Assembly (NCBI GenBank): GCA_945890645.1
Contig: CAMDCV010000010.1
Coordinates: 1 to 64,000, forward strand
DNA length: 64,000 bases
DNA from: Akkermansia muciniphila
Lineage (GTDB): Bacteria; Verrucomicrobiota; Verrucomicrobiia; Verrucomicrobiales; Akkermansiaceae
Direction: 5' to 3'
The notes beneath the pieces were generated by a model, which was not told the DNA's origin, did no database searches, and saw nothing but the letters and a program-made list of their open reading frames with translations. Shown in pieces: positions 21,705 to 54,773 of the stretch. The position numbers and the translations under genes were made by a program. The stretch's first letter is position 1. Each line of letters starts with the position of its first letter.

Positions 21705-22442
21705 ATGACACGACGCCTCATTCTCTCTGCGATCACCTTGCTTTTTTCTTCCTCATCCAGCTTCGCAGATCCGGCACCGAAGGATATGAAGCTATTTCTT
21801 TTAATCGGTCAGTCGAACATGGCAGGTCGTGGTAAAGTCGAACCTAAGGATCAAGAGGTAAATCCGCAGATCTTCATGTTGACCAAAGATCTTCAGTGGG
21901 TGCCAGCAAAGGACCCGCTCCACTTTGATAAGCCAGCGGCCGGTGTGGGACTTGGTTCAGAGTTTGCGCGCGAAGTGTCCAAAGCTGATCCCAAGATGAC
22001 CATTGGTTTGATCCCATGCGCGGTAGGCGGCACGACTCTCGACCAATGGAAAGACGGCAGCCCACTTTATAAAACGGCAGTGGAACGTGCCACGGAAGCG
22101 ATGAAACAAGGCACCTTGGCGGGCATTCTTTGGCACCAAGGTGAATCCGACAGCTCCCCCGCCCTCGCTGCGACTTACGAAGATCGTTTGACAAAGATGA
22201 TGCGGTCGCTTCGCAAAGACTTAAAGGCCGAGAAAGTGCCCGTGATTTTAGGTGAGCTCAGTCGGGGTTTTAAGAACAACGATGCCGTTAACGAGCAATT
22301 GGCAAAATCCGCGAAAAAAATACCACTCTGCGGATTGGCAACCACGGAAGGTTTGGAAGTCGCTCTTCACTTCAATTCAGCATCCTATCGAAAACTGGGC
22401 GCGCGTTATGCGGCTGAATATTTGAAATTGGCGAAGCCGTAA
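21705..22442 (+). CDS. Second SASA-family SGNH esterase
   Basis: This is a 245-aa secreted protein with signal sequence ILSAITLLFSSSSSFA. The catalytic Ser lies in LFLLIGQSNMAGRG, followed by IPCAVGGTTLDQW (oxyanion region) and ILWHQGESDSS. The C-terminal ALHFNSASYRKLGARYA probably provides the catalytic His. It is a shorter relative of the SASA gene at 5968-6738. Its last codons (RYAAEYLKLAKP) recur as a remnant 6.8 kb away at 29230-29271, which marks the left border of an inserted island. Confidence 0.87.
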   Translation: MTRRLILSAITLLFSSSSSFADPAPKDMKLFLLIGQSNMAGRGKVEPKDQEVNPQIFMLTKDLQWVPAKDPLHFDKPAAGVGLGSEFAREVSKADPKMTIGLIPCAVGGTTLDQWKDGSPLYKTAVERATEAMKQGTLAGILWHQGESDSSPALAATYEDRLTKMMRSLRKDLKAEKVPVILGELSRGFKNNDAVNEQLAKSAKKIPLCGLATTEGLEVALHFNSASYRKLGARYAAEYLKLAKP

Positions 22443-22526
22443 TCTTTCCCAATGCCATCATTCGACGCACCAGCATTGTCCTACAGCACCTGCGGCAAAA
22501 CTTTCGCCATCAATACCAGCTTGAGA
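22405..22526. repeat. Left copy of a diverged junction repeat flanking the island
   Basis: This segment carries the last codons of the SASA gene, its stop and about 80 nt beyond. It matches 29229-29350 at roughly 85-88% by eye. The shared core includes ttgaaattggcgaagccgt and, further on, ggcaaaac. Read leftward, its distal part encodes the C-terminus of the MBL hydrolase located at 29287-30237. The two copies bracket 6.7 kb of accessory DNA. Confidence 0.85.
22458..22526 (-). pseudogene. 3' remnant of an MBL-hydrolase gene
   Basis: Read on the minus strand, this encodes YSQAGIDGESFAAGAVGQCW and then CVE and a stop. The intact hydrolase at 29287 ends in DAGIDNDRFAAGAVGQCW followed by CVD and a stop. 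Only about 20 codons are left and no start is present. It shows that an SASA gene and an MBL-hydrolase gene once converged here. Confidence 0.85.
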
Positions 22527-22913
22527 GTATTGAGCTTGTGAGACAAGCTCTGCAAAAAGCCTCAGACATGAGTGTTTGTTTATGTCATTGAAATAAGGGC
22601 TTGGTATGGGTTAGCATGTGCATCTCTGCCAATGGGACGCGCCAACTTATCGATAAGCCCATGCGCATAGCTTGCGCAACGCGAGAGTTAAAGTGAAGCA
22701 ATCTGTATCTCCCGCTTTTTGCGCCGCGGAGTCTCCGGCACAGACATGCCAAGTCATAAAATGTGACAGAGGAGCATTGGCAGGTGTTCGCGAGTTATCT
22801 GCTCCAGTGGTGTAAGTAATTTACATGCGGTCACCCCCCGTGAAGTAATTTTTTTTTACTGTAGGGCACCTCTGGATGAGGGGTGATTTATTTGTGAATG
22901 CTTTAAAGTTGGC

Positions 22914-22927
22914 TGAACACGTGTTCA
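22914..22927. promoter_or_regulatory. Perfect 14-bp palindrome
   Basis: TGAACACGTGTTCA is a perfect palindrome in otherwise unstructured intergenic DNA beyond the transposase 3' end. It could be an operator left from the gene that once lay here. No regulator can be named. Confidence 0.3.
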
Positions 22928-23040
22928 AGCTACTCGCGAAGGTGGTCGACGTTGTTGGGGGGAGTGTTTTTTCTCCATTTTTTTGCCTTTGAAACTCATT
23001 TTTCTCTCAATTCCGTGCCCTGGCGGCTGCTTCGGCGCGC

Positions 23041-23946
23041 TCAACGCACCAAGCAGGCGTGGCGATCCATGTTGTAAACCATGTTGGCGATGTGATTATG
23101 ACTGCTCGCTCGTTTCAATCCGATGCTTCGACAGACGTGGTTGCCCATCTGCGACATGCGCCCAAAGACGTGTTCTACTCTCACTCGCATGCGGCTGATG
23201 GTTTTGTTGGTTTTGATTTCTCGTTCGTTGAGCGGATGGTTGCGGGTTGCTTTGCGCATCAGAAATTCTTGCGCATTTATGCTGACCAATAGATCTTCGT
23301 GCGCCTCACTGTAGTAGGCACTATCGGCCAGCACTGCGCGGTCTTGCTCGTCGATGAGTTCAAGAAATACTTGGCTGTCGTGGACATTCGCGGATGTGGT
23401 CACGGACTTGATTATGAGTTTGCTCTTCAGGTCCACTTTGGCGTGATTTTTATAGCCGTAATGGGTTTCGTTGTTTTTCTTTGCCCAGCGTCCTTCGCAA
23501 TCTTTCTGTCTGCCCACGGATGGATTAGCGTCGAATTCTTCGGGGCGTTTGCCTTCTTTGATCTGTTGGTTTTGTTCGCGGGTGTCGCGTTGGCGTGGCG
23601 CATTCGTGAAACTGGTATCGACGATGCTGCCCTCACGGGCGATGAGACCTTTGCGCTCTAATGTGTGAGTGAATGCCTCGAACAGGCGGACTGATCCGTT
23701 GCGGCCTTCGGATTCAATTCTCTGCTTGAAGTCCCAGATGGTTTTGGCATCGGGAATCTCATCGCCCAGTCGAAGTCCGAGGAAGTTCTGAAAACTAAAG
23801 CGATCAAAGATTTGTTCTTCGGTAGCATCGTCACTGAGGTTGAAATACTTTTGAAGAACCAAGACTTTAAGCATGAAGACGGGATCGAAGGGAAGCTTGC
23901 CTTCTTTGCTCCAATCGCGCGTTGCATAGCCACTGATGTCTTCCAT
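23041..23946 (-). CDS. IS5-family DDE transposase, probably 5'-truncated
   Basis: From the ATG at 23946 the product is 301 aa. It contains the IS5-type core: ATEEQIFDRFSFQNFLGLRL, then IPDAKTIWDFKQRIE, a first Asp in GSIVDTSF, a second in AVLADSAYYS and the Glu in RVEHVFGRM. The frame is open far upstream of this ATG. It encodes HQKALALKSTGILKLRDI and then IDWDSFRPLMEDI, which fits a normal IS5 N-terminus, but no in-frame ATG precedes it. The frame then enters sequence shared with the kinase gene tail (from about 24030). The element has therefore probably lost its left end and start codon. Whether the internal ATG gives an active protein is doubtful. Confidence 0.85.
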   Translation of the reverse strand: MEDISGYATRDWSKEGKLPFDPVFMLKVLVLQKYFNLSDDATEEQIFDRFSFQNFLGLRLGDEIPDAKTIWDFKQRIESEGRNGSVRLFEAFTHTLERKGLIAREGSIVDTSFTNAPRQRDTREQNQQIKEGKRPEEFDANPSVGRQKDCEGRWAKKNNETHYGYKNHAKVDLKSKLIIKSVTTSANVHDSQVFLELIDEQDRAVLADSAYYSEAHEDLLVSINAQEFLMRKATRNHPLNEREIKTNKTISRMRVRVEHVFGRMSQMGNHVCRSIGLKRASSHNHIANMVYNMDRHACLVR

Positions 23947-24029
23947 GAGCGGACGGAAGGAATCCCAATCAATAATATCGCGTAGTTTGAGAATGCCTGT
24001 TGATTTGAGGGCTAGAGCTTTTTGATGAT

Positions 24030-24172
24030 CAATGGCCCAAAACCCAGAGTGGCCATCGAGGGCGAGCGCCAGGAAATCGAAGAGGCCGCTCTGCAGGTGA
24101 AGTGAAAAAATTCATTTTTTTTCGCAATCGCCGAAACGCCCCTAGAAAAAGGGCGAGTTAGTAGATGTAGCC
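24030..24172. repeat. Copy of the kinase 3' end plus downstream DNA
   Basis: This ~143-nt segment matches 42014-42156 at about 90% by eye. It covers the last 24 kinase codons, the stop, an A/T-rich stretch and a conserved small hairpin (CGCCC ... GGGCG). Identity begins abruptly at the transposase end and fades after gtagcc. Confidence 0.88.
24031..24105 (+). pseudogene. 3' remnant of a receptor-kinase gene
   Basis: It encodes NGPKPRVAIEGERQE and then IEEAALQVK and a stop. This is nearly identical to the C-terminus of the kinase at 39566-42088. The rest of the gene has been lost, and a transposase abuts it. It implies that an ECF/kinase pair once stood upstream of the phosphodiesterase-sulfotransferase gene. 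Confidence 0.88.
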
Positions 24173-24255
24173 TCTAGTATATATACTGCTAAATTAAGGT
24201 TGAATTTTATGTATATGTAATAACTCACAACGCATGATGATTTCCTGAATTCTAA

Positions 24256-27162
24256 ATGAGTCTTACCAACAAAATCCTCCTCATCGGCTGGGATGCCGCG
24301 GATTGGAAAGTCATCAACCCCTTGCTCGACGCGGGCAAGATGCCCAACCTCGCGCGGTTTTTGGAAAAGGGCGTGATGGGAAACATCGCCACGCTCCAGC
24401 CCGCGCTCAGTCCCACCCTCTGGACCTCCATCGCCACCGGCAAGCGTCCCTACAAGCACGGCATCCTCGGTTTTTCCGAGCCGGACCCCGTCACCGGCGG
24501 CATCCGCCCCATCACCAATCTCTCGCGCAAGACCAAGGCGATCTGGAACATCCTCAACCAGGAGGGGAAAAACACCATCACCGTCGGCTGGTGGCCGTCC
24601 AATCCCGCCGAGCCGCTCAGCCACGGCGTGATGGTCTCTAATGATTACCAGCATGCCCATGGCAGCACCTACGACCCGGAAAAATGGCCGCTCAAGCCGG
24701 AAACCATCCACCCCGAGCGCCTCGTCCGCCATCTCAAGGATCTGCGATTCCACCCCGCCGAGCTGACCGAGGATGACCTGCGCCCCTTTCTCCCCGGCCT
24801 AGATGGCATGGCCCGCGTGGATCTCGACAAGGCAGGGAAAGATCCCCGCGTCCAGTCGCTTGCCAAGATCATCGCGGACTGCACCAGCGTTCACTCCGCC
24901 GCCACCGCGCTGATCCAGAACGAGCCGTGGGATCTCATGTGCGTCTATTACGATGCCATCGACCACTTCGGCCACGCTTTCATGAAATACCACCCGCCGC
25001 AGCGGCCGCAGGTGGACGATTGGGATTTCCGCGTCTTCAACCACTGCGTGGAAATGGGCTACATTTACCACGATGCCATGCTCGGCACCCTGCTCGATCT
25101 CGCCGGGGAGGATGTCACCGTCATCCTCATGTCCGACCACGGCTTCCATCCAGACGACCTGCGCCTCAGCAATATCCCGCGCGAACCCGCCGGCCCCGCT
25201 GCAGAGCACCGCCAATTCGGCATCTTCGCCGCCAAGGGCCCCGGCATCCGCCAAGACGAGCGCGTTTATGGAGCCTGTCTAATAGACATTTGCCCCACTT
25301 TGCTCCACCTCTTCGGCCTGCCCGTGGGTGAGGACATGGATGGCAAGGTGCTTATCGATATTTACGAGAACCCCCCTGCGGAAATCCAGCGCATCCCCAG
25401 TTGGGACGCCGTGCCCGGTGACCACGGTATGCACCCGCCGGACAAGCAAATCTCGGCTGCCGACTCCAAGGCCGCTCTCCAGCAGCTTGTGGCCCTGGGC
25501 TACATCGCGGAGCCAGATGCGGATCAAGCCGTAGCCTTGGAGCAAACCGTGCGTGAGCTGGATTACAATCTGGCCCAGGCATGGATCGATGGCGGCTACT
25601 ACGCCGAGGCGGTAGTCATCCTGGAGCGGCTCTACCAGACTTGGCCGATGGAGCACCGCTTCGGCTTCAAGCTGGCCACTTGCTACCAGCTCCAAGACCG
25701 CCCGCGAGACCTGCGTGCCGTGGTCACCACCGTGAGCGAGCGGCGCATGCAGGAAGCCAGCGAGGCCATGGCCGCCGTGGAAGGGCTCAAGCTCCACCAA
25801 GAAGAGACCCGGCTGGCGGAGAAGGAACGCATCGAGGCCATGAGCGATAAGGAGAAGGGAAAATTTGTCCGTGAGCGCGGTGAGTTGCTTGCCAAGGCGA
25901 GTCCTAACCTTTTTTCACTGCGCTACCTGGAAACGTGCGCGGATGTGGGGGAGAAGCTCTACGAGGAAGCTCTGATCAAGCTGGAGGATCTTGATGGCAA
26001 CTTCGGCGCGCGGCGCAATGCACTCACACTGCGCGGCGAGGTGCTGCAGAAGCTGCAGCGCTGGGACGAATCATGCACCGCGTTCGAGGAGGCTCTCGCC
26101 ATCGATGCAGAAGCACCCGGACCGCTGCTCGGCATCGCCCGTGCGGCGCTGGCTCGCTGCGACTTCCAGCAGGTCATCCACTATTCCCGCAAAGCGCTTG
26201 GGTTGCTCTACTTCCAGCCGAAGGGGCATTACATGCTCGGCCTTGCGCACTACCGGCTCGGCGAGCTGGCAGAAGCCAAGCAGGCCTTCCAGACGTCCGT
26301 CACCCAAGCACCGTTGTTTGCCGCCGGATTCCGCATGCTTGGGCAGATCGCCCGTCTGGAGCACGATGCCATCGGCCAAAGCCGCGCCGCACTGCAACTG
26401 CGCCAGTCCCGTGCGCAGCTTGCGGCTCTGCAAGACTTCAAACACGGGGAACTCCAGTCGCTCCACGGTGGCGAAGCACAGGACACCCGCCCAATGCCCG
26501 AGTTGGAGCTGCACCCGGAGGCCCTTGCTGCGGTGGGTCGGGAGGAAATCATCACGATCGTGTCTGGCCTGCCTCGCTCCGGCACCTCGCTGATGATGCA
26601 AGTGCTGGAAGCCGCCGGCATACCCGCCTTTACCGATGGCAGGCGCTCGGCGGATGCCTCGAATCAAAAGGGCTACTACGAGCATGACCGGGTGGCCTCC
26701 CTGCTCACCACTCCGGAAAAATCCTGGCTGGCCGACGCGCGCGGACACTCACTCAAGGTGGTGGCACCGCTGCTCGCGGCGCTACCGCTCAAAGTCAAGG
26801 ATTCAACATCCAAAATCCAGAAGCTCCGCTACCGCGTGCTTTTCATGGAGCGCGAGATGGGGGAAATCCTTGAGAGCCAAGAAACCATGCTTAGCCGCTT
26901 GGGCAAGCGTACCCAGCCCGGAGCGGACATCGCAAAGGCCTACCGCCAGCAAGTCCGCCACGCCAAAACCTGGCTTACCGGTCAAGGCATCCCTGCCATG
27001 AGCGTTTCTTATGAAAATCTCGTCCACCACCCGGATCAAATCCTGCCATTAGTCGCTGCCCTCCTTGGCGTGCCGGACAAGCTCGACGCGATGCATGCGG
27101 CCATCGATCCGAGTCAGCACCGCGCCCGCATCCAAGCTGTCCCAACATCTTCACCCGGCTAA
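24256..27162 (+). CDS. Type I phosphodiesterase (alkaline phosphatase superfamily)-TPR-sulfotransferase fusion
   Basis: This 968-aa protein has three parts. Residues 1-400 are an alkaline-phosphatase-superfamily domain: metal Asp in LIGWDAADW, nucleophile Thr in LSPTLWTSIATG, then YDAIDHFGHAF and VILMSDHGFHPDD. Residues about 420-740 are helical, with a charged coiled segment followed by TPRs (LQRWDESCTAFEEALAIDAE and YRLGELAEAKQAFQTSV). Residues about 755-960 are a sulfotransferase-type domain with the PAPS 5'-phosphosulfate loop SGLPRSGTSL (about 769-778). No signal peptide is present. It follows a kinase-gene remnant and precedes a PEP-CTERM gene. Codons end in C far more often than in neighbouring genes, which suggests transfer. 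Role in modifying surface polymers or glycans is inferred. Confidence 0.85.
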   Translation: MSLTNKILLIGWDAADWKVINPLLDAGKMPNLARFLEKGVMGNIATLQPALSPTLWTSIATGKRPYKHGILGFSEPDPVTGGIRPITNLSRKTKAIWNILNQEGKNTITVGWWPSNPAEPLSHGVMVSNDYQHAHGSTYDPEKWPLKPETIHPERLVRHLKDLRFHPAELTEDDLRPFLPGLDGMARVDLDKAGKDPRVQSLAKIIADCTSVHSAATALIQNEPWDLMCVYYDAIDHFGHAFMKYHPPQRPQVDDWDFRVFNHCVEMGYIYHDAMLGTLLDLAGEDVTVILMSDHGFHPDDLRLSNIPREPAGPAAEHRQFGIFAAKGPGIRQDERVYGACLIDICPTLLHLFGLPVGEDMDGKVLIDIYENPPAEIQRIPSWDAVPGDHGMHPPDKQISAADSKAALQQLVALGYIAEPDADQAVALEQTVRELDYNLAQAWIDGGYYAEAVVILERLYQTWPMEHRFGFKLATCYQLQDRPRDLRAVVTTVSERRMQEASEAMAAVEGLKLHQEETRLAEKERIEAMSDKEKGKFVRERGELLAKASPNLFSLRYLETCADVGEKLYEEALIKLEDLDGNFGARRNALTLRGEVLQKLQRWDESCTAFEEALAIDAEAPGPLLGIARAALARCDFQQVIHYSRKALGLLYFQPKGHYMLGLAHYRLGELAEAKQAFQTSVTQAPLFAAGFRMLGQIARLEHDAIGQSRAALQLRQSRAQLAALQDFKHGELQSLHGGEAQDTRPMPELELHPEALAAVGREEIITIVSGLPRSGTSLMMQVLEAAGIPAFTDGRRSADASNQKGYYEHDRVASLLTTPEKSWLADARGHSLKVVAPLLAALPLKVKDSTSKIQKLRYRVLFMEREMGEILESQETMLSRLGKRTQPGADIAKAYRQQVRHAKTWLTGQGIPAMSVSYENLVHHPDQILPLVAALLGVPDKLDAMHAAIDPSQHRARIQAVPTSSPG

Positions 27163-27260
27163 CACGATGATCACCTTTTCTGCGGCTCACCCCCGTAAAC
27201 CTCTCTTACTTCCGGCGATAAGCGCAGGAAGGAGCAAAACAAAACAAAAAAATATATAAA

Positions 27261-27887
27261 ATGAAATCGAAGATAAACATAACACGCGGTGCCAAATTGA
27301 TCCCGGGAGTGTTGGTGGCAGCTGCTGCCACCACCGCCACTCAAGCAGCTCTCGTCCAGATCACTTTCACGAATAACTTCGTGAAAAATACCGCCGCAGG
27401 TGGAGCGACGAATCTCCTGCTGGATTTAACGGGGGACGGCATTAACGACGTCGGCGGAGCTGTTCAACCTCAACTAGCGGGAATCAGATCCGTTTATAGC
27501 TCTAACCTAAGAGCTGTTGCACATTTTGTGCCCGCATCCTATTCCAACCGAGTGCGTGTTGGCGTGAATAACTCGATTCATCAGTTTGGTTACTCCAACC
27601 TTACATTGAACGGTTTGACTCCATTCTTTTTCCAAGACGCCACTATCAATGGCGGCGCGAAAACAGAAGGATTTGCCGAGTTCACATCGACCACTGTTGG
27701 AGACGAATACACCGTTACGCTGCATCGGTTGATTTTTGACAATGCCAACCCGATTGCCGCCACCCCAGATATTGGGACGACCTATCCGACATTTGGCGCT
27801 ATCCCAGAGCCATCGAGCCTCGGACTGCTTGCGCTGGGTGCCGGTGGCTTGCTGGCCCGCCGCCGCCGCGTCCAGGCTGCTGCGTGA
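27261..27887 (+). CDS. PEP-CTERM sorting-domain secreted protein
   Basis: This is a 208-aa protein. The signal peptide (KLIPGVLVAAAATTATQA) is followed by a beta-rich, Asn/Thr-rich mature part. The C-terminus is a textbook PEP-CTERM signal: IPEPSSLGLLALGAGG, then LLARRRR. The family is processed by an exosortase at the PEP motif and sent to the cell surface or matrix. No exosortase gene lies in this window. The function of the mature part is unknown. It lies about 100 nt after the sulfotransferase fusion, and a GC-rich hairpin follows it. Confidence 0.9.
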   Translation: MKSKINITRGAKLIPGVLVAAAATTATQAALVQITFTNNFVKNTAAGGATNLLLDLTGDGINDVGGAVQPQLAGIRSVYSSNLRAVAHFVPASYSNRVRVGVNNSIHQFGYSNLTLNGLTPFFFQDATINGGAKTEGFAEFTSTTVGDEYTVTLHRLIFDNANPIAATPDIGTTYPTFGAIPEPSSLGLLALGAGGLLARRRRVQAAA

Positions 27888-27903
27888 AAAACCTCTTGCG
27901 GGG

Positions 27904-27934
27904 GCGTGGCGGCGGAGAGCTTCCGCCGCCACGC
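27904..27934 (+). terminator. GC-rich hairpin after the PEP-CTERM gene
   Basis: GCGTGGCGGCGGA (27904-27916), loop gagct and the perfect complement at 27922-27934 give a 13-bp stem directly after the stop at 27887. No T run follows, so it may end transcription with help or protect the mRNA. Confidence 0.55.
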
Positions 27935-28123
27935 TCGGCACCGCAACCGACCCGCATCGTGATTCATAGACGGGCAACTAAACATCGGCGTAAGCGGCTG
28001 CCGCTTTGGGGTCACGCAGCCTGCTGCGACCCCGACAACCCCAGCCCCCAGAGCCGCCGCGATTTTTCTTCCTCACCTCTCCGCCACTTCCTTGATCGGA
28101 ATATGATAAAATAAGCACATCCC

Positions 28124-29035
28124 ATGAATCCTGAAGAAAACACACCGAAAATGAGTCGGCCTGACCGCAGCAATGCATCATGGAACCTTACTGAAAATGT
28201 ATTGGTTGGATCGGGGCCCAAAAAAGAAAAATGTAACTGGGATGAACCAGATGAGATCGTGAGCACGCAAGCTCAGGGAGGGTCATCGTTTTTGGTATGG
28301 TGGATCCTCGGCTTCATCATTCTTCTGGCGGGAGCTTCTTTCTATTTGCTTAATGGAAAGCCCAAGCAACCGATAGCGGCAAAAATCACCGCGCTGCAAA
28401 TAGGCGAGGAGAAATGGGTAGGACTGCTGCCTGAGGCGGTTGCTCAGCGTTTTATCGATGCCACTACCATCGAAGAGCGTCTTGTGTGGGTGCGTGACCC
28501 AGACGAAACAGAGCCATTACTGCGTGAGTTTTTCGAAAATGGTGCAGGTGCTCAGGAAAAAATAATCGCACTTACTCACCTAGGAGGGGGTAAGAATGAA
28601 CAGTCATTTTTCCACCGCTTCAAAGTGAGCCTCGAAGATGGAGGGAAGCGCCTCTTATGTGTGTCTGTGATCGAAAATCGTGCATTCGTCGATTTCAAAT
28701 GCTACGCTCGATACGGTTCTGCAACGTGGCAAGAATTGCTCAGTGGGCAAAAAAGCGAAGCGCAGGAAGTCCGGGTATTTGTAGAGCTTGATTCTTTCTA
28801 CATGGGTGCATTCTCCGATGAAAGTCGATGGCTGAGTTTAACTACGACGACACCTGATTGCGAAGATGCCTTGTATTTTTATGTCGACCGGAACTCAGTA
28901 ATGGGAAATAAGATCGCGCAACTTTCTGAAGGAGAGCAGCAACGGATGACGCTGGGCATACGCTCTGTAAACAATAGTCACGAGAAAAAACAATTTGAAG
29001 TGATCCATTTGCACGCCTTCGGCTGGAGCTATTGA
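28124..29035 (+). CDS. Unknown single-pass membrane protein
   Basis: This is a 303-aa protein. About 55 hydrophilic residues are followed by one membrane helix (FLVWWILGFIILLAGASFYLL). A soluble domain of ~220 residues comes next, starting with a helical segment (AQRFIDATTIEERLVWVRDP) and continuing as alternating strands (FHRFKVSLEDGGKRLLCVS). I do not recognise the family. The short N-terminal tail is likely cytoplasmic and the C-terminal domain outside. It is the last gene of the island, after the PEP-CTERM gene, and a long-loop terminator follows it. Confidence 0.75.
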   Translation: MNPEENTPKMSRPDRSNASWNLTENVLVGSGPKKEKCNWDEPDEIVSTQAQGGSSFLVWWILGFIILLAGASFYLLNGKPKQPIAAKITALQIGEEKWVGLLPEAVAQRFIDATTIEERLVWVRDPDETEPLLREFFENGAGAQEKIIALTHLGGGKNEQSFFHRFKVSLEDGGKRLLCVSVIENRAFVDFKCYARYGSATWQELLSGQKSEAQEVRVFVELDSFYMGAFSDESRWLSLTTTTPDCEDALYFYVDRNSVMGNKIAQLSEGEQQRMTLGIRSVNNSHEKKQFEVIHLHAFGWSY

Positions 29036-29058
29036 TGACTACAGCGGTATTGGACCCT

Positions 29059-29119
29059 GTCGTCTAACATCTTTGGCGGTTGTTGCTCGCATGGTAACAT
29101 TTTGTCTAGACGACTTTTT
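29059..29119 (+). terminator. Inverted repeat with T run after the membrane-protein gene
   Basis: GTCGTCTA (29059-29066) and TAGACGAC (29107-29114) are perfect complements separated by 40 nt. Five T follow directly. This fits an intrinsic terminator for the gene ending at 29035. Confidence 0.5.
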
Positions 29120-29228
29120 CGAGTTTTCTACCTTCCGGCATGGCTCGAGGTGATGGTGGAAAGAAATTGTGTCTCACGGCTGCGGATCATCTGTTGTTTC
29201 TCGATTGGCCCCCTAGGCTTCCCTTGGG

Positions 29229-29350
29229 GGTACGTTATGCAACAGAATATTTGAAATTGGCGAAGCCGTGATCTTAAGCAATGCCATCAATCGACGCACC
29301 AGCATTGTCCTACAGCACCTGCGGCAAAACGGTCATTATCAATACCAGCA
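29229..29350. repeat. Right copy of the diverged junction repeat
   Basis: This is the counterpart of 22405-22526. It begins with the remnant SASA codons and runs into the 3' end of the intact MBL hydrolase gene. Differences are scattered over the ~120 nt (about 15 by eye), so the copies are not a fresh duplication. Confidence 0.85.
29230..29271 (+). pseudogene. 3' remnant of a SASA esterase gene
   Basis: It encodes VRYATEYLKLAKP and a stop. The intact SASA gene at 21705-22442 ends in ARYAAEYLKLAKP. Nothing upstream of these 13 codons resembles the esterase. Confidence 0.85.
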
Positions 29351-30237
29351 TCCAGCAAGGCTTTTTCTAACAAGAGGGGTGGCTCACCAAGAGGTTCATC
29401 CGTGAGCGTGAACGTGCCCCAGTGCATAGCTATGGCTTGCTTTGTTTGCGTGTCTTGAAAAACTTGCACGGCCTCTTGGGGATTCATGTGCATCGGCTGC
29501 ATGAACCAGCGCGGGGCATAGGCCCCGATGGGGATCATGCTGAGATCAAATGGGCCGAGGCGTTCACCAATTTCACGGAATACCTCACAGTAGCCGCTAT
29601 CTCCCGCGTGCCACAAACGCTTGCCGCCGCCTTCAATACTCCAGCCGCACCAGTGCGCATGATTCCGATCTAACAACGATCGCGCCGTGAAATGCTGGGC
29701 AGGTGTAGAGGTGATGTCAACTTCGCCCATTCGAAAATTTTCCCACCATGGTAGTTCTCGAACATTGGTGAAACCTTTCCCCTCCAGCCAAGCGCGATGA
29801 CCTTCTGCTACGATGATTGTAGTATTTCGTGGAAAATGTCGTAGCGTCGGCAGATCACAATGATCGTAGTGATGGTGCGTTAACAAAATGACATCGATGA
29901 CTGGCAAGTCACTCAATGACAAAGGCGGTGGCACATGGCGTTTCAAACGGGAAAAGTGAAAGGGAAACGGCGCACAGAAATCCGAAAAAATCGGATCAAT
30001 GAGAATGCGCATGCCAGCTCCACAAAGGAGAAACGACGCATGACCGAGCCAATGCACGCGCCATCCGGTGGAGGGAATCGTCTGCAAATCAGCAGGATCA
30101 ATCGCCCTCCACGGTGCGGCGGAAGTGGCGTCAGGATATGCGTTTTCTTCCTTCGGTCCGAGGCCGAGTTTCCATCGTAGCACTTCTCGAAAGCCGTGCT
30201 GATCGTGAGGCCAAGGATTGCGGAAGATGTCACTCAT
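29287..30237 (-). CDS. MBL-fold metal-dependent hydrolase (NAPE-PLD/UlaG-like)
   Basis: This is a 316-aa protein. The metallo-beta-lactamase motif is LTHHHYDHCDLPTL, preceded by WLGHASFLL and followed by TPAQHF, LWHAGDSGY and MHWGTF. These motifs match the NAPE-hydrolysing phospholipase D-like and UlaG-like branch, with Zn ligands H-x-H-x-D-H, H, D and H. No signal peptide is present, so it is cytoplasmic. The substrate is unknown. Its 3' end lies inside the island's right border repeat, and a remnant of a sister gene lies at 22458-22526. Confidence 0.87.
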   Translation of the reverse strand: MSDIFRNPWPHDQHGFREVLRWKLGLGPKEENAYPDATSAAPWRAIDPADLQTIPSTGWRVHWLGHASFLLCGAGMRILIDPIFSDFCAPFPFHFSRLKRHVPPPLSLSDLPVIDVILLTHHHYDHCDLPTLRHFPRNTTIIVAEGHRAWLEGKGFTNVRELPWWENFRMGEVDITSTPAQHFTARSLLDRNHAHWCGWSIEGGGKRLWHAGDSGYCEVFREIGERLGPFDLSMIPIGAYAPRWFMQPMHMNPQEAVQVFQDTQTKQAIAMHWGTFTLTDEPLGEPPLLLEKALLDAGIDNDRFAAGAVGQCWCVD

Positions 30238-30266
30238 CGGTTTTTATACAATGAGCGACTACTATT

Positions 30267-30746
30267 TTACTTTAGCAACTCCACCACGCTCTCGCTTGCA
30301 GGATCCCAGTAGCGAATGGCTTTTACTACGCCGCCAGATACGCTCAGCACGGTGACTTTGTTGGCTTGTTGCGGATACGAAGTCAGCAAGTTGGCCTCAT
30401 CGGCGAGGATAATGCGGTGGGGATACTTGCGCATCTTTGGCAGCGCAAACATGCGTCCTACTCCCGGCATGCCGAAAATGTTCGCGACATAGACGGCTTT
30501 TTTGTTCGTCAAAAAATCAGCTCCTTGCGCAGAGAGCGCGGCATTGGCTTTTTTGCCTGTTTCCATGTCGAAGCTCACTAACAGATATTTAGTTTTCGCC
30601 GCTTCAAATTCGTAAGCATTACCGTGCTGGTCATTGGCTTTGAAAGCCGCGACTTTACTGCCGTTTTTATAAACATCGGCCATCGCCATCGAAGTGGAGA
30701 GAGCGAGAATCAAGACGCTATTGAGAATGGTTTGCAATAATTTCAT
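30267..30746 (-). CDS. Exported thioredoxin-fold-like protein without CxxC
   Basis: This is a 159-aa protein with a signal peptide (SVLILALSTSMAMA). The mature part starts VYKNGSKVAAFKANDQHGN, as in AhpC/TlpA-like domains. It continues with a strand YLLVSFDM and a cis-Pro-like region (RKYPHRIILADEANLL). The place where redox Cys residues would sit (FDMETGKKANAAL) has none, so disulfide chemistry is unlikely. It is transcribed divergently from the gene at 30824, and the two may share the regulatory region. Confidence 0.75.
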   Translation of the reverse strand: MKLLQTILNSVLILALSTSMAMADVYKNGSKVAAFKANDQHGNAYEFEAAKTKYLLVSFDMETGKKANAALSAQGADFLTNKKAVYVANIFGMPGVGRMFALPKMRKYPHRIILADEANLLTSYPQQANKVTVLSVSGGVVKAIRYWDPASESVVELLK

Positions 30747-30749
30747 AAG

Positions 30750-30777
30750 TTGACAGGGCTGTTACAGCTGATATCAT
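30750..30777 (+). promoter_or_regulatory. Sigma-70-like promoter
   Basis: TTGACA (30750-30755), a 16-nt spacer and TATCAT (30772-30777) give a near-consensus housekeeping promoter. It points rightward, and the ATG follows 47 nt later at 30824. Confidence 0.5.
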
Positions 30778-30794
30778 ACCAATCTATTTATTGA

Positions 30795-30810
30795 TTGCAA
30801 ACATTTGCAA
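30795..30810. promoter_or_regulatory. Candidate operator palindrome
   Basis: TTGCAAA-CA-TTTGCAA is a perfect 7-bp dyad placed between the predicted transcription start and the ATG at 30824. A repressor bound there would block transcription. No candidate regulator is encoded nearby. Confidence 0.45.
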
Positions 30811-30823
30811 CGATACGCTTGTC

Positions 30824-31321
30824 ATGCATCATAACCCGCACAAAAACCTAGCTAGTAGGAAGTCATCGCGACTTCGCTCCGCGATGGGTTTATTGTTGTT
30901 GACCGTGTATGCACTCGGGCAATTTGTTTTCGCTTCGTCGGCCCTTTCTCAGATCGCTGCACTCACGGGACAGCATCAAGTGCTGATCTCCGGTGATTGC
31001 GTTGTGTTGCATCACGCGAATGGGGAAGCATCTCCTCATCAAGGATTTACCAAATTTCTCGTGGCACTCAGTCGCACAAATGCGGCAGGGGATCATATCC
31101 TGCCCAGTGTCCCGGCAGATCTTTGCGAAGAACCTCGTCAAAGTGAGGACGTGGAAAATGATCTGACCACGGCATTCGTGGATGAGCAAGGCGGTATATT
31201 TGAACATCATAGTTTGCTAGGAATCACCGATAGACATGAGGGAGCCGCTGCAGTGCCGCGAAATGCGTTTATCACGCAGTTGACGCTCTCACATTGGCGC
31301 ACGGTCAAGCGCGTGGTCTGA
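30824..31321 (+). CDS. Small exported or anchored protein, unknown
   Basis: I use the ATG at 30824, giving 165 aa. An upstream TTG would place the start inside the operator palindrome region. A basic N-terminus is followed by one hydrophobic segment (MGLLLLTVYALGQFVFASS). The rest is hydrophilic with several His and Cys (GDCVVLHHANGEASPHQG and FEHHSLLG), which might bind metal or haem. I do not recognise a family. It precedes the YceI and respiratory-type genes by 120 nt, so it may belong with them, but a gap with its own possible signals lies between. Confidence 0.65.
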   Translation: MHHNPHKNLASRKSSRLRSAMGLLLLTVYALGQFVFASSALSQIAALTGQHQVLISGDCVVLHHANGEASPHQGFTKFLVALSRTNAAGDHILPSVPADLCEEPRQSEDVENDLTTAFVDEQGGIFEHHSLLGITDRHEGAAAVPRNAFITQLTLSHWRTVKRVV

Positions 31322-31442
31322 TTGAAATTGTGCTCGGATTATTTTTGTGTTCCCAGATCTGAGGATCGCGAGCAGGAGCAAAAATAGTGAAGAGCGATTC
31401 TGCCTTCTCTAACAATTTCTCAACATTAGACTCTATACTATT

Positions 31443-31976
31443 ATGAAAACACTACTCTCTCTCATCGCCATGACGACCATGGCCTCCGCCGGCACGATGA
31501 AAATCGATGCTTCCAAAAGCTGGTTGAAAATCGACTGTAAGGCCACCGGCCACAGTTGGTCCGCTCAACTGAAAAAATTCTCCGCTTCGGTATCGGGCGA
31601 TGACTCCACTCTCACGCCGAAAGCGGCACAGATGTCGTGGAATTTTTCGGATCTCGATTCTAACGAAGCCGATCGCGATAAAAAAATGCTGGATTGGCTC
31701 AATTCTACGAAAACCCCCGGCGGTTCGTGGAAGATGACAGGCCAATGGAAAGACGGCACGGGGCAGCAATATGTCAAAGGACCATTGACGATCGCGGGCG
31801 TGTCGAAGGAAATCACCATTCCTGTCACGGCCAAAAAAGATGGGAAGAACGTGAGTCTTGATGGCGAAGTGTGGATCGATACGACGGATCACGGACTGCC
31901 GATTATCAAAATGCTCGTCATGACCGTGAATCCTAAAGTGAAAATCAAATTTCATCTGGAGGGGCCATCGAACTGA
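31443..31976 (+). CDS. YceI-family periplasmic protein
   Basis: This is a 177-aa protein with a short signal peptide (LLSLIAMTTMASA). The lipocalin-like YceI barrel follows: IDASKSWLKIDCKATGHSW near the start, GPLTIAGVSKEITIPVTA in the middle and VWIDTTDHGLPI towards the end. YceI proteins are known to bind long polyisoprenoid chains in a hydrophobic channel. The next gene, 18 nt downstream, is a prenyl diphosphate synthase. That pairing supports an isoprenoid or quinone connection for the whole cluster. Confidence 0.88.
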   Translation: MKTLLSLIAMTTMASAGTMKIDASKSWLKIDCKATGHSWSAQLKKFSASVSGDDSTLTPKAAQMSWNFSDLDSNEADRDKKMLDWLNSTKTPGGSWKMTGQWKDGTGQQYVKGPLTIAGVSKEITIPVTAKKDGKNVSLDGEVWIDTTDHGLPIIKMLVMTVNPKVKIKFHLEGPSN

Positions 31977-39565: not shown

Positions 39566-42088
39566 ATGACCGACGTCCCAGCCGCTTCCTCTCCCGAAAC
39601 CTGTCCTGACTGCGGGCGCGATCTACCACAGAGTAAGGGCTGCCTACATTGTGCCGTGGAACTAGCTCTGGCCGCAGCCACAGAGTGTCCGGAAGCCGAG
39701 GCGGATTTATTGGATTCTTCCCATTTGTTGGCAAAACAGGGTGGATTTGCCGCTTTTTCGGATCCGGTTCTTCCCATGCAGGTAGGGCGTTTTCGATTGT
39801 TGCGGAGGTTGGGGATCGGCGGCATGGGGGCCGTGTATGAAGCTGTCGATGGTGCGCTGGACCGCATCGTGGCGCTGAAAATGATCCGCGGTTTCCATTT
39901 TTCCACGGCAGATGAAATGAGCCGCTTCCAACGGGAAGCGCAGGCGGCGGCTCGGTTGGACCATTCGAATATTGTGCCGGTCTATGAGATTGGGGAAGTG
40001 GATGGGTGCCCATTTCTTTCCATGAAAATGATCCGGGGTGGGACTCTAGCAGAGCGCCTTAAGACAGGGCGGATGGCTGCTGAGGAATCAGCCGCCATCA
40101 TGGCAAAGGTGGCTGCGGCTGTCGGCTACGCCCATGAGAGGGGCATTCTGCATCGGGACCTTAAACCCTCCAATATCCTGCTGGACGAGGAGGGCGAACC
40201 ATGGCTGACGGATTTTGGCATGGCGCGGCTTTCCGGAACGGAGGTGGCTCTGACCGTGACGGGAGCGCAGATTGGCACTCCCCATTATATGTCACCAGAG
40301 CAGGCGGCAGGATTGGTGCGGGCATTGACGCCCGCGAGTGATGTGTGGGGGCTCGGGGCCATTTTTTACCAGATGTTGAGCGGCCAACTCCCTTATGAAG
40401 GTGAGTCGAATGTGGCGATCATGCATCAGGTGTTGTCGGCGGATCCTCCCCAATTGCAGGCAAAGTCGCGCCGTGAAATGGAGCTCGCGGTGCTCATCGA
40501 GCGCTGTTTGCAGAAAGAACCAAGCATGCGCATGCAAAGTGCCACAATGCTTGCGGAGGAGCTGGAACGATGGTTGAAGCAGCGGCCGATTCTCTCCCGG
40601 CCAGTGTCGTGGTGGGAGAAATCCCTGCGTTGGTCGAAGCAGCGTCGTTGGTCATTGGTCTCGGGGTCTGTTGCTCTCATGGGCGTGGCACTTGCCATCA
40701 GTAGATTCTGGCCGATCGCTGAAAACCGACCGACTGGTGCGGTTGCGGAAATCATCATTTCGAGAGAAGGGAGCCGCTTGGTGCTGCGCGATGTAGCGGG
40801 TGGGGATCAATTGCTTTATATTGGCGAGAAGGAGCCTGGCACCATTCATTTCCGCGAGGAGGGACGCCATTTCCAAATGCCGGATGGATCCATGATTCTG
40901 GGTGCTACCGCGGGAATCGCTTTGGACGGGATTACCCAGATCTTGGTGGACGGTGGGGCAGGGCAGGACAACATAAACTTCGTTGGCATTGGAACTCCGT
41001 TGCCGAACCTTCAGATCAATGGGGGTGAGGGAGACGATTTGATTCAGTTTTGGAAACCGATTTCGTTTAAGGCAAACGCCGGGCTTGATGTGGACTTGCA
41101 GGATGATGCCGCTGCGCCCGGCGTAGATGGCGTGCGGTTTCAAGAAGGAGCCGTTGTGAAAACCTCCGGCACAGGGAAGATCACTGTGCGCTGTAGTTCT
41201 GGTCTTTTTGTCGGGAAAGCTGAATTGCGCACGGTTGATGGTGGAATTACACTGGAAGCGAATCAGCAAGCAATCCCGACTGTTGCCGAATTCAAGGGCA
41301 TCGAACTCAATCGGGCGCATGTCATCAGTGATGGCATAGGCCCCATCAACATGAGTGCGCGCGGTGGCACGAGAGGGATCTTTCAGTTTGGTATTTCGTT
41401 GACGAATCAAGTGCTCATTCAGGGAGGGACCAAGGGCGCTGTCACCCTGCGTGGCCAGGGGGGAGCTGGCAACGGACAAAACGATAGTAGCGGCATCAAT
41501 ATGGTAGAGGAGCGCTGCATGATCACCAGCAAAGGTGCTGATATCCTGCTCGAAGGTCGGGGCGTGGGCTCTCCAGAAACGGGCAGCAACAACGGCATCG
41601 CCATCGTGGCAGGCACGATTCAAGGAAATGGGAAAGTCACCCTGGATGGAAAAGGCGGTGAAACCAAGGGCGGCGCGAATCATGGCATCCTGCTGCGGGG
41701 GCCTTTGGTAGCCATTCGTTCCAGTGGCGGAGACATTTTCCTCAAGGGACAAGGTGGAGGCACGAGCAACTCCCATGTGACCAACAATGGTGGAGTTGTC
41801 GTGAGATACAATGCTTCCGTGCAGGCGGATGGATCTGACAATATCATTATGGAAGGTCGTGGCGGGATGGGCGGAGGCAGTGATCAGGTAGGTGTCGTGA
41901 TTTTTGAAGGAGCTAAAATCGATGCCGCCGCAGGCAGTATCAAGATCACCGGACATTCCGGCAATGATAGCTCGCTTAGCGTCCAAGTTGCTAGCCCCGG
42001 ACGCGTGCGCACCAATGGCCCAAAGCCCAGAGTGGTCATCGAGGGCGAGCGCCAGGAAATCGAAGAGGCCGCTCTGCAGGTGAAGTGA
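39566..42088 (+). CDS. Transmembrane Ser/Thr kinase with glycine-rich beta-solenoid-like ectodomain
   Basis: This is an 840-aa protein. A zinc-ribbon-like N-terminus has Cys pairs (CPDCGRDLPQSKGCLHC). The kinase domain (about 75-345) is complete: LGIGGMGAVYEAVD, the Lys in IVALKMIRG, HRDLKPSNILL and TDFGMARL. One membrane helix follows (about 362-382, LVSGSVALMGVALAI). The ~450-residue outside part is rich in Gly, Asn and Asp. Its repeated strands (VTLRGQGGAGNGQN, ILLEGRGVGSPETG, VTLDGKGGETKGGAN, IFLKGQGGGTSNS, IIMEGRGGMGGGSD) resemble filamentous-haemagglutinin or autotransporter beta-helices. Part of this ectodomain reads like a calcium-binding repeat (GGAGQDNINF, NGGEGDDLIQF). The kinase may sense surface events and act on the upstream sigma factor. 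The C-terminal 24 codons recur at 24031-24105. Confidence 0.88.
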   Translation: MTDVPAASSPETCPDCGRDLPQSKGCLHCAVELALAAATECPEAEADLLDSSHLLAKQGGFAAFSDPVLPMQVGRFRLLRRLGIGGMGAVYEAVDGALDRIVALKMIRGFHFSTADEMSRFQREAQAAARLDHSNIVPVYEIGEVDGCPFLSMKMIRGGTLAERLKTGRMAAEESAAIMAKVAAAVGYAHERGILHRDLKPSNILLDEEGEPWLTDFGMARLSGTEVALTVTGAQIGTPHYMSPEQAAGLVRALTPASDVWGLGAIFYQMLSGQLPYEGESNVAIMHQVLSADPPQLQAKSRREMELAVLIERCLQKEPSMRMQSATMLAEELERWLKQRPILSRPVSWWEKSLRWSKQRRWSLVSGSVALMGVALAISRFWPIAENRPTGAVAEIIISREGSRLVLRDVAGGDQLLYIGEKEPGTIHFREEGRHFQMPDGSMILGATAGIALDGITQILVDGGAGQDNINFVGIGTPLPNLQINGGEGDDLIQFWKPISFKANAGLDVDLQDDAAAPGVDGVRFQEGAVVKTSGTGKITVRCSSGLFVGKAELRTVDGGITLEANQQAIPTVAEFKGIELNRAHVISDGIGPINMSARGGTRGIFQFGISLTNQVLIQGGTKGAVTLRGQGGAGNGQNDSSGINMVEERCMITSKGADILLEGRGVGSPETGSNNGIAIVAGTIQGNGKVTLDGKGGETKGGANHGILLRGPLVAIRSSGGDIFLKGQGGGTSNSHVTNNGGVVVRYNASVQADGSDNIIMEGRGGMGGGSDQVGVVIFEGAKIDAAAGSIKITGHSGNDSSLSVQVASPGRVRTNGPKPRVVIEGERQEIEEAALQVK

Positions 42089-42156
42089 AAAAAAACATTT
42101 TTTTTCGCAATCGCCGAAACGCCCCCAGAAAAAGGGCGAGTCCATTAGGTGTAGCC
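42014..42156. repeat. Kinase gene tail and downstream segment, duplicated at 24 kb
   Basis: This is the counterpart of 24030-24172. Conservation extends beyond the stop through an A/T-rich patch and a small CGCCC/GGGCG hairpin. The non-coding part is therefore conserved too and may have a regulatory job between kinase and cargo gene. Confidence 0.88.
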
Positions 42157-42229
42157 ACTGTCCTGCCAGCGCTGGGCGTGGCCCAATCTCTTTAAGCACC
42201 CTTTGTTTCCCACTCATCCCGCAAAAATT

Positions 42230-53675: not shown

Positions 53676-54773
<1,098 letters not shown>

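Follow-up and report, generated by a model that had tools for sequence, protein, structure and literature searches.

Introduction

Homology-facilitated illegitimate recombination, a process in which a single homologous anchor is combined with a non-homologous join, is known from Acinetobacter, pneumococcus and P. stutzeri. RecA-dependent exchange requires 25-35 bp of identical sequence and works up to a divergence of about 15% (PMC6382021). In Escherichia coli, linear DNA can be trimmed, recircularised and integrated by a single crossover, which results in duplications of 109-950 bp (PMC3240628), and one-sided recombination has been proposed for the additive gain of type VI secretion system modules, with stranded remnants, in Vibrio cholerae (PMC5361080). 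Here we describe a locus within a 64-kb stretch of Akkermansia muciniphila DNA (the window; contig CAMDCV010000010.1 of assembly GCA_945890645.1), in which the junction between two convergent genes, one of the sialic-acid-specific acetylesterase (SASA) family and one encoding an MBL-fold hydrolase, is present twice, on either side of a block of 6704 nt (22521-29224). We interpret this locus, with a probability of roughly one half, as the scar that a single additive insertion left at the convergent SASA/MBL junction when it duplicated about 120 bp of it, the incoming DNA having entered by short homology with the DNA of a close relative.

The genome that carries the window (G000), that of a freshwater member of the Verrucomicrobia, is a 66-contig draft of 3.82 Mb, 97.6% complete with 0.5% contamination; the window makes up the first 64 kb of a contig of 106.7 kb. 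The genome was compared with 57 relatives, of which G009 is the closest, with 260 family genomes and with 49 further MBL loci; the related genomes are mostly metagenome-assembled.

Results

Two copies of one convergent gene junction

The segments 22396-22520 and 29225-29349 form an ungapped direct match of 125 nt with 87.2% identity and an offset of 6829. The second-best ungapped site for this 125-mer in the window reaches 56/125, and the repeat has two copies, and no third, in the whole 3.82-Mb genome. The homology ends sharply at both breakpoints, with no protein-level similarity past the 125 nt. The left copy contains the 3' end of the SASA gene, the stop-to-stop gap and the last 20 MBL codons, which form a minus-strand remnant. 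It completes an intact SASA gene (21705-22442, plus strand; Pfam PF03629, E 2e-65) ending in LGARYAAEYLKLAKP and a stop codon, and the MBL remnant (AGIDGESFAAGAVGQCWCVE) is in frame with a stop of its own. The right copy holds the intact 3' end of the MBL gene, which encodes a 316-aa hydrolase (29287-30237, minus strand; Pfam PF12706, 7e-51) ending in AGIDNDRFAAGAVGQCWCVD before its stop, together with the gap and a SASA remnant of about 15 last codons (LGVRYATEYLKLAKP and a stop).

Since each copy has one gene whole and the other reduced to a clean in-frame remnant, in reciprocal fashion, an insertion must have taken place where SASA and MBL converged, with duplication of the junction itself. 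An earlier note on this DNA had described two junction copies about 87% alike, the left one completing SASA beside a hydrolase remnant and the right one the reverse, and had read this most simply as two formerly convergent genes; the alignment bears the observation out, and the reciprocal remnants show that the genes did converge in this lineage. The intervals that it gave (22405-22526 and 29229-29350) are 5 nt out of register with each other, and the homology stops at 22520 and 29349.

The overall divergence between the copies is about 11-13%. In the SASA part the differences are mostly synonymous (5/7, by hand count), whereas the MBL part has four changed codons, all nonsynonymous, three of which are adjacent and fall into one 7-nt cluster. 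The positions that differ are clustered (P 0.0015); the repeat includes an identical tract of 40 nt, longer than expected by chance (P 0.02-0.04 in tests picked after the data had been seen). A split of the repeat into a diverged and a near-identical part was not significant (P 0.12), while a variable-column test of the MBL remnant gave P 0.03, a weak result since three of the four changed codons adjoin. Polarising the MBL differences by hand with G009 and G007 proved ambiguous. With the SASA part mostly synonymous and the MBL part wholly nonsynonymous, the locus alone cannot tell whether the divergence pre-existed or came later.

Similar scars in this and other genomes

We scanned 0.9 Mb of G000 for direct repeats of 60-400 nt, lying 1.5-20 kb apart and lacking protein-level similarity beyond their ends. 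Six clean direct pairs versus one inverted pair were obtained; the C4:31862 pair is self-palindromic and appears in both lists, and without it the numbers are five and zero. Besides SASA/MBL, these 0.9 Mb contain four clean direct scars. Control scans yielded (direct vs inverted) 2 vs 0 in G009 (0.84 Mb), 0 vs 0 in G027 (0.4 Mb), 1 vs 0 in assorted family loci (0.56 Mb) and 2 vs 0 in E. coli K-12 (0.4 Mb), where one pair is prophage e14 at icd (216 bp, 87%) and the other resembles an intergenic repeat. The two clean K-12 pairs weaken the idea that such scars are special to G000. As direct-repeat scars are also found in control genomes, e14/icd among them, the scar type is general and does not prove an integrase-free route. 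In the seven scars of G000 and G009 the identical tract is longer than chance would give, with P values for the single scars ranging from 0.003 to 0.1 in tests likewise picked post hoc.

The scar at pepP (G000:C9:85004-85162 / 88887-89045; L241) is a 159-bp, 91% direct repeat, whose orphan pepP 3' end and intact pepP flank 3.7 kb of DNA in which HTH, IrrE-type peptidase and DUF5131 genes are located. Ten of the 13 codons that differ between the copies are changed synonymously, and the remnant branch, polarised by hand with G009, carries 6 synonymous and 1-2 nonsynonymous changes. Because these changes are mostly synonymous, the remnant diverged within a working gene, prior to the duplication; such a pattern is predicted by recombination with a relative's DNA, and not by in-situ decay. 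The split of this repeat into a diverged and a near-identical part is weaker (12 vs 3 differences).

Another scar (G000:C10:71795-71894 / 73980-74078; L075), a 100-bp, 86% direct repeat, is flanked by an EVE-domain gene on one side and an ABC gene on the other, and its 2.1-kb insert (71895-73979) includes genes of the ECF sigma and OmpH-like types. In G001, G003 and G007 the site is empty, the EVE and ABC genes being direct neighbours, and the OmpH-like cargo has a DNA match away from the EVE/ABC junction in 8/8 genus relatives searched. The coding half of this repeat is diverged and the intergenic half near-identical (16 vs 1 differences, P 0.005). Two further short direct-repeat pairs of G000 belong to the same general type: one at C9:51696-51897 / 54260-54461, in which the differences are very unequally divided between the two parts (27 vs 5), and one at C3:19415-19489 / 23806-23880. 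In the sister species G009 (C1:71315-71399 / 73482-73565; L249), the 3' end of an 851-aa gene is duplicated around a single 646-aa gene.

Neighbourhood in relatives and search for mobility genes

Several genomes of the genus and of the family have an MBL ortholog, with variable 3' neighbours: polA (converging) in G009, dprA in G007 and G003, and other genes elsewhere (names read from translations). On the right flank, the gene order from MBL onward matches contig C31 of G009, while the genes of the left flank match a different contig, C35. No close relative of the SASA protein was found in the named genome collection, and a search of the 260 family genomes with the junction DNA gave only chance-length matches. 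Thus, with differing MBL neighbours, no SASA among them and flanks on two G009 contigs, the SASA/MBL neighbourhood is specific to its own lineage among the genomes compared. In the region 29287-31976, MBL has the opposite orientation to its neighbours, in G000 as in G009; in several relatives (e.g. L155, L197) it converges on the 159-aa gene instead.

No integrase family (tyrosine and serine types included) was detected among the proteins scanned in the block and its nearest neighbours, and the 64-kb window contains no tRNA gene. The cargo is not flanked by paired insertion sequences (ISs); a single IS5-type copy is present, in the left part of the block, which does not fit a composite transposon with its two bracketing IS copies. 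The Ku family was not detected in the genome, which makes end-joining capture less likely.

Structure of the block between the copies

The left end of the block consists of about 340 nt without a long gene. A perfect hairpin with an 8-bp stem (GAGCTTGT-GAG-ACAAGCTC, 22532-22550) lies there, 11 nt inside the breakpoint; it is a single copy in the genome and so is not a dispersed REP-like element. It is followed by an IS5-family insertion sequence (22859-24166, minus strand, ends approximate; NF033581, E 3e-72; 89% to G003:C192) with a putative TTA target duplication and a transposase gene (23041-23946, minus strand; NF033581); the element is a secondary insertion within the block. An end fragment of the same IS5-type element, 93% identical to 24030-24175, is located at 42013-42159 of the window.

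The main cargo gene (24256-27162, plus strand) encodes a 968-aa phosphodiesterase/nucleotide pyrophosphatase - TPR - sulfotransferase protein (PF01663, 1e-27; TPR; weak sulfotransferase match), with full-length or partial matches in 41/57 relatives; its plasmid matches are only partial (<60% identity) and phage matches were not found. Further along the plus strand are genes for a PEP-CTERM protein (27261-27887; Pfam PF07589, TIGR02595) and for a 303-aa protein of no assigned family with a likely membrane segment (28124-29035). The genes for the 968-aa and 303-aa proteins resemble a module: in G005 their homologs stand directly next to each other, and in G008 and G049 they share one contig. A paralogous phosphodiesterase-sulfotransferase gene with a similar PEP-CTERM end occurs elsewhere in the same genome (G000:C34:39030-43246; L114), with 80-82% DNA identity to the island genes. 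The cargo cannot be a recent copy of this paralog, since at 82% over coding DNA the two are more diverged than the junction copies.

At the right end of the block lies a truncated REP-associated tyrosine transposase (RAYT; 29051-29209, plus strand; family NF047646), reduced to its upstream region and about 23 codons (MARGDGGKKLCLTAADHLLFLDW) and cut at the breakpoint. Its closest relatives are the RAYT loci of G007 (79-85% DNA identity), and eight Y1_Tnp matches exist elsewhere in the genome. The other RAYT half, whose presence at the left end of the block would point to the place where a circle had opened, was sought there and not found. An imperfect hairpin (CCCCCTAGG/CCTTGGGGG, 29209-29231, z -2.6) is placed at the right breakpoint.

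Discussion

The repeat alone names no mechanism, as any duplicative insertion gives reciprocal remnants. The sister scars, with the empty sites of EVE/ABC and the pre-diverged pepP alleles, favour entry of a relative's DNA by way of short homology. An incoming fragment or circle from a close relative would have brought, along with the cargo, a short stretch of the same gene-end region in diverged form; this stretch would have paired with the chromosome via short homology, RecA mediating a crossover within the 40-nt identical tract, and the molecule would have been joined either in circular form, by a single crossover, or through an illegitimate join at its other end. The tract is longer than the RecA minimum of 25-35 bp, and a divergence of about 11-13% is below the exchange limit of about 15% (PMC6382021). 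The donor, the involvement of RecA and the form in which the DNA arrived are inferred; the data cannot separate a single crossover from one-sided recombination, and a replication template switch or the attachment (att) site of a lost integrase is also possible. The earlier note had proposed that a molecule with a related junction integrated by a single crossover, with no integrase or tRNA site involved. Neither was found, among block proteins and neighbours or in the window, respectively, and homology-driven entry at a gene end is plausible and gains support from the sister scars; this support does not extend to the donor junction or to the single crossover.

Several observations weigh against entry by short homology. 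SASA beside MBL, an empty site or a donor junction was found in none of the 57 relatives, 260 family genomes and 49 MBL loci, so the direct convergence of the two genes that the earlier note proposed to look for in related genomes did not appear there. The donor would need to carry only about 120 bp of the junction. The wholly nonsynonymous differences in the MBL part are those expected of neutral decay, or of one local event that changed several bases, and not of orthologs. The EVE/ABC remnant is frameshifted, with an in-frame stop, next to an almost unchanged intergenic half, and this scar is better explained by a one-sided event (with the crossover at the boundary) or by subsequent decay than by a simple single crossover. 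Finally, the detector scores the integrase-made e14/icd scar alike (87%).

Some of these observations are those expected if the insertion arose in situ, a replication template switch (or a filled-in long staggered break) copying or capturing an ectopic segment and restarting about 120 bp upstream, with the functionless halves decaying later. Such an event makes a donor junction unnecessary and agrees with the hairpins at both breakpoints, with the clustering of the differences and their nonsynonymous nature in the MBL part, and with the frameshift in the EVE remnant. However, no Ku was detected, the SASA part differs mostly synonymously, and the pepP remnant is clearly no neutrally decayed copy; we therefore regard an in-situ origin as possible, though on the unlikely side. 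The resemblance of the repeat in length and divergence to e14/icd, and the fact that gene ends are a usual att position, could also indicate the relic of an integrase island, with the two copies as attL and attR and the integrase gene lost. This is improbable, given that the 6.7 kb hold no integrase, that the repeat covers the ends of two convergent genes, and that no single kind of site is common to the other scars of G000, which occupy the 5' end of a gene as well as intergenic DNA.

A tandem duplication of the SASA-MBL pair would likewise have led to directly oriented reciprocal remnants, had the inner MBL and SASA genes then been replaced by other DNA until their ends alone were left. Such a history, which requires at least two events and a tandem pair that is seen nowhere, and which has to accommodate homology stopping cleanly at both breakpoints, seems very unlikely. 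The chance that a chimeric contig was assembled from two related genomes, conceivable in a draft of 66 contigs, is slimmer still: the copies are 13% different and each has its own truncation, so that a separate deletion would be needed in both parent genomes, and the completeness and contamination values of the assembly speak against it.

Direct repeats that are short and diverged and that strand the end of a gene preserve a readable record of additive gene transfer. If short homology drives entry, each scar gives the divergence of the donor, the position of the crossover and the illegitimate join, and the share of integrase-free additive transfer becomes measurable in uncultured freshwater bacteria. 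A wider proposition, which we advance tentatively and with more doubt than confidence, is that in this Verrucomicrobia lineage kilobase chromosomal gene blocks from sister species are repeatedly added beside resident genes, anchored by 30-50 bp of identity within diverged gene ends, and that this leaves datable direct-repeat scars throughout the genome, without mobile-element machinery.

The SASA/MBL scar adds a new example to a type of event that is already known. Homology-facilitated illegitimate recombination also adds cargo and strands remnants by means of one homologous anchor and one non-homologous join; in its classic form it deletes recipient DNA, whereas here the anchor region was duplicated. 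Prophage e14 at icd of E. coli K-12, recovered by the same detector, shares the diverged direct repeat at a gene 3' end and the orphan end (icdC) on the far side, but it has an integrase and phage genes, and the SASA/MBL block has neither. In replacement flexible genomic islands of aquatic prokaryotes (PMC4033161), homologous recombination is likewise implicated in the exchange of island content between related aquatic bacteria; those events replace a variable block, whereas the event described here added DNA and duplicated the junction. Campbell-type single-crossover integration in E. coli (PMC3240628) also leaves a direct duplication around the insert, short homology being enough and no integrase being required. 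There the homology was engineered and identical, whereas at SASA/MBL a donor and a circle are postulated and the copies are 13% diverged.

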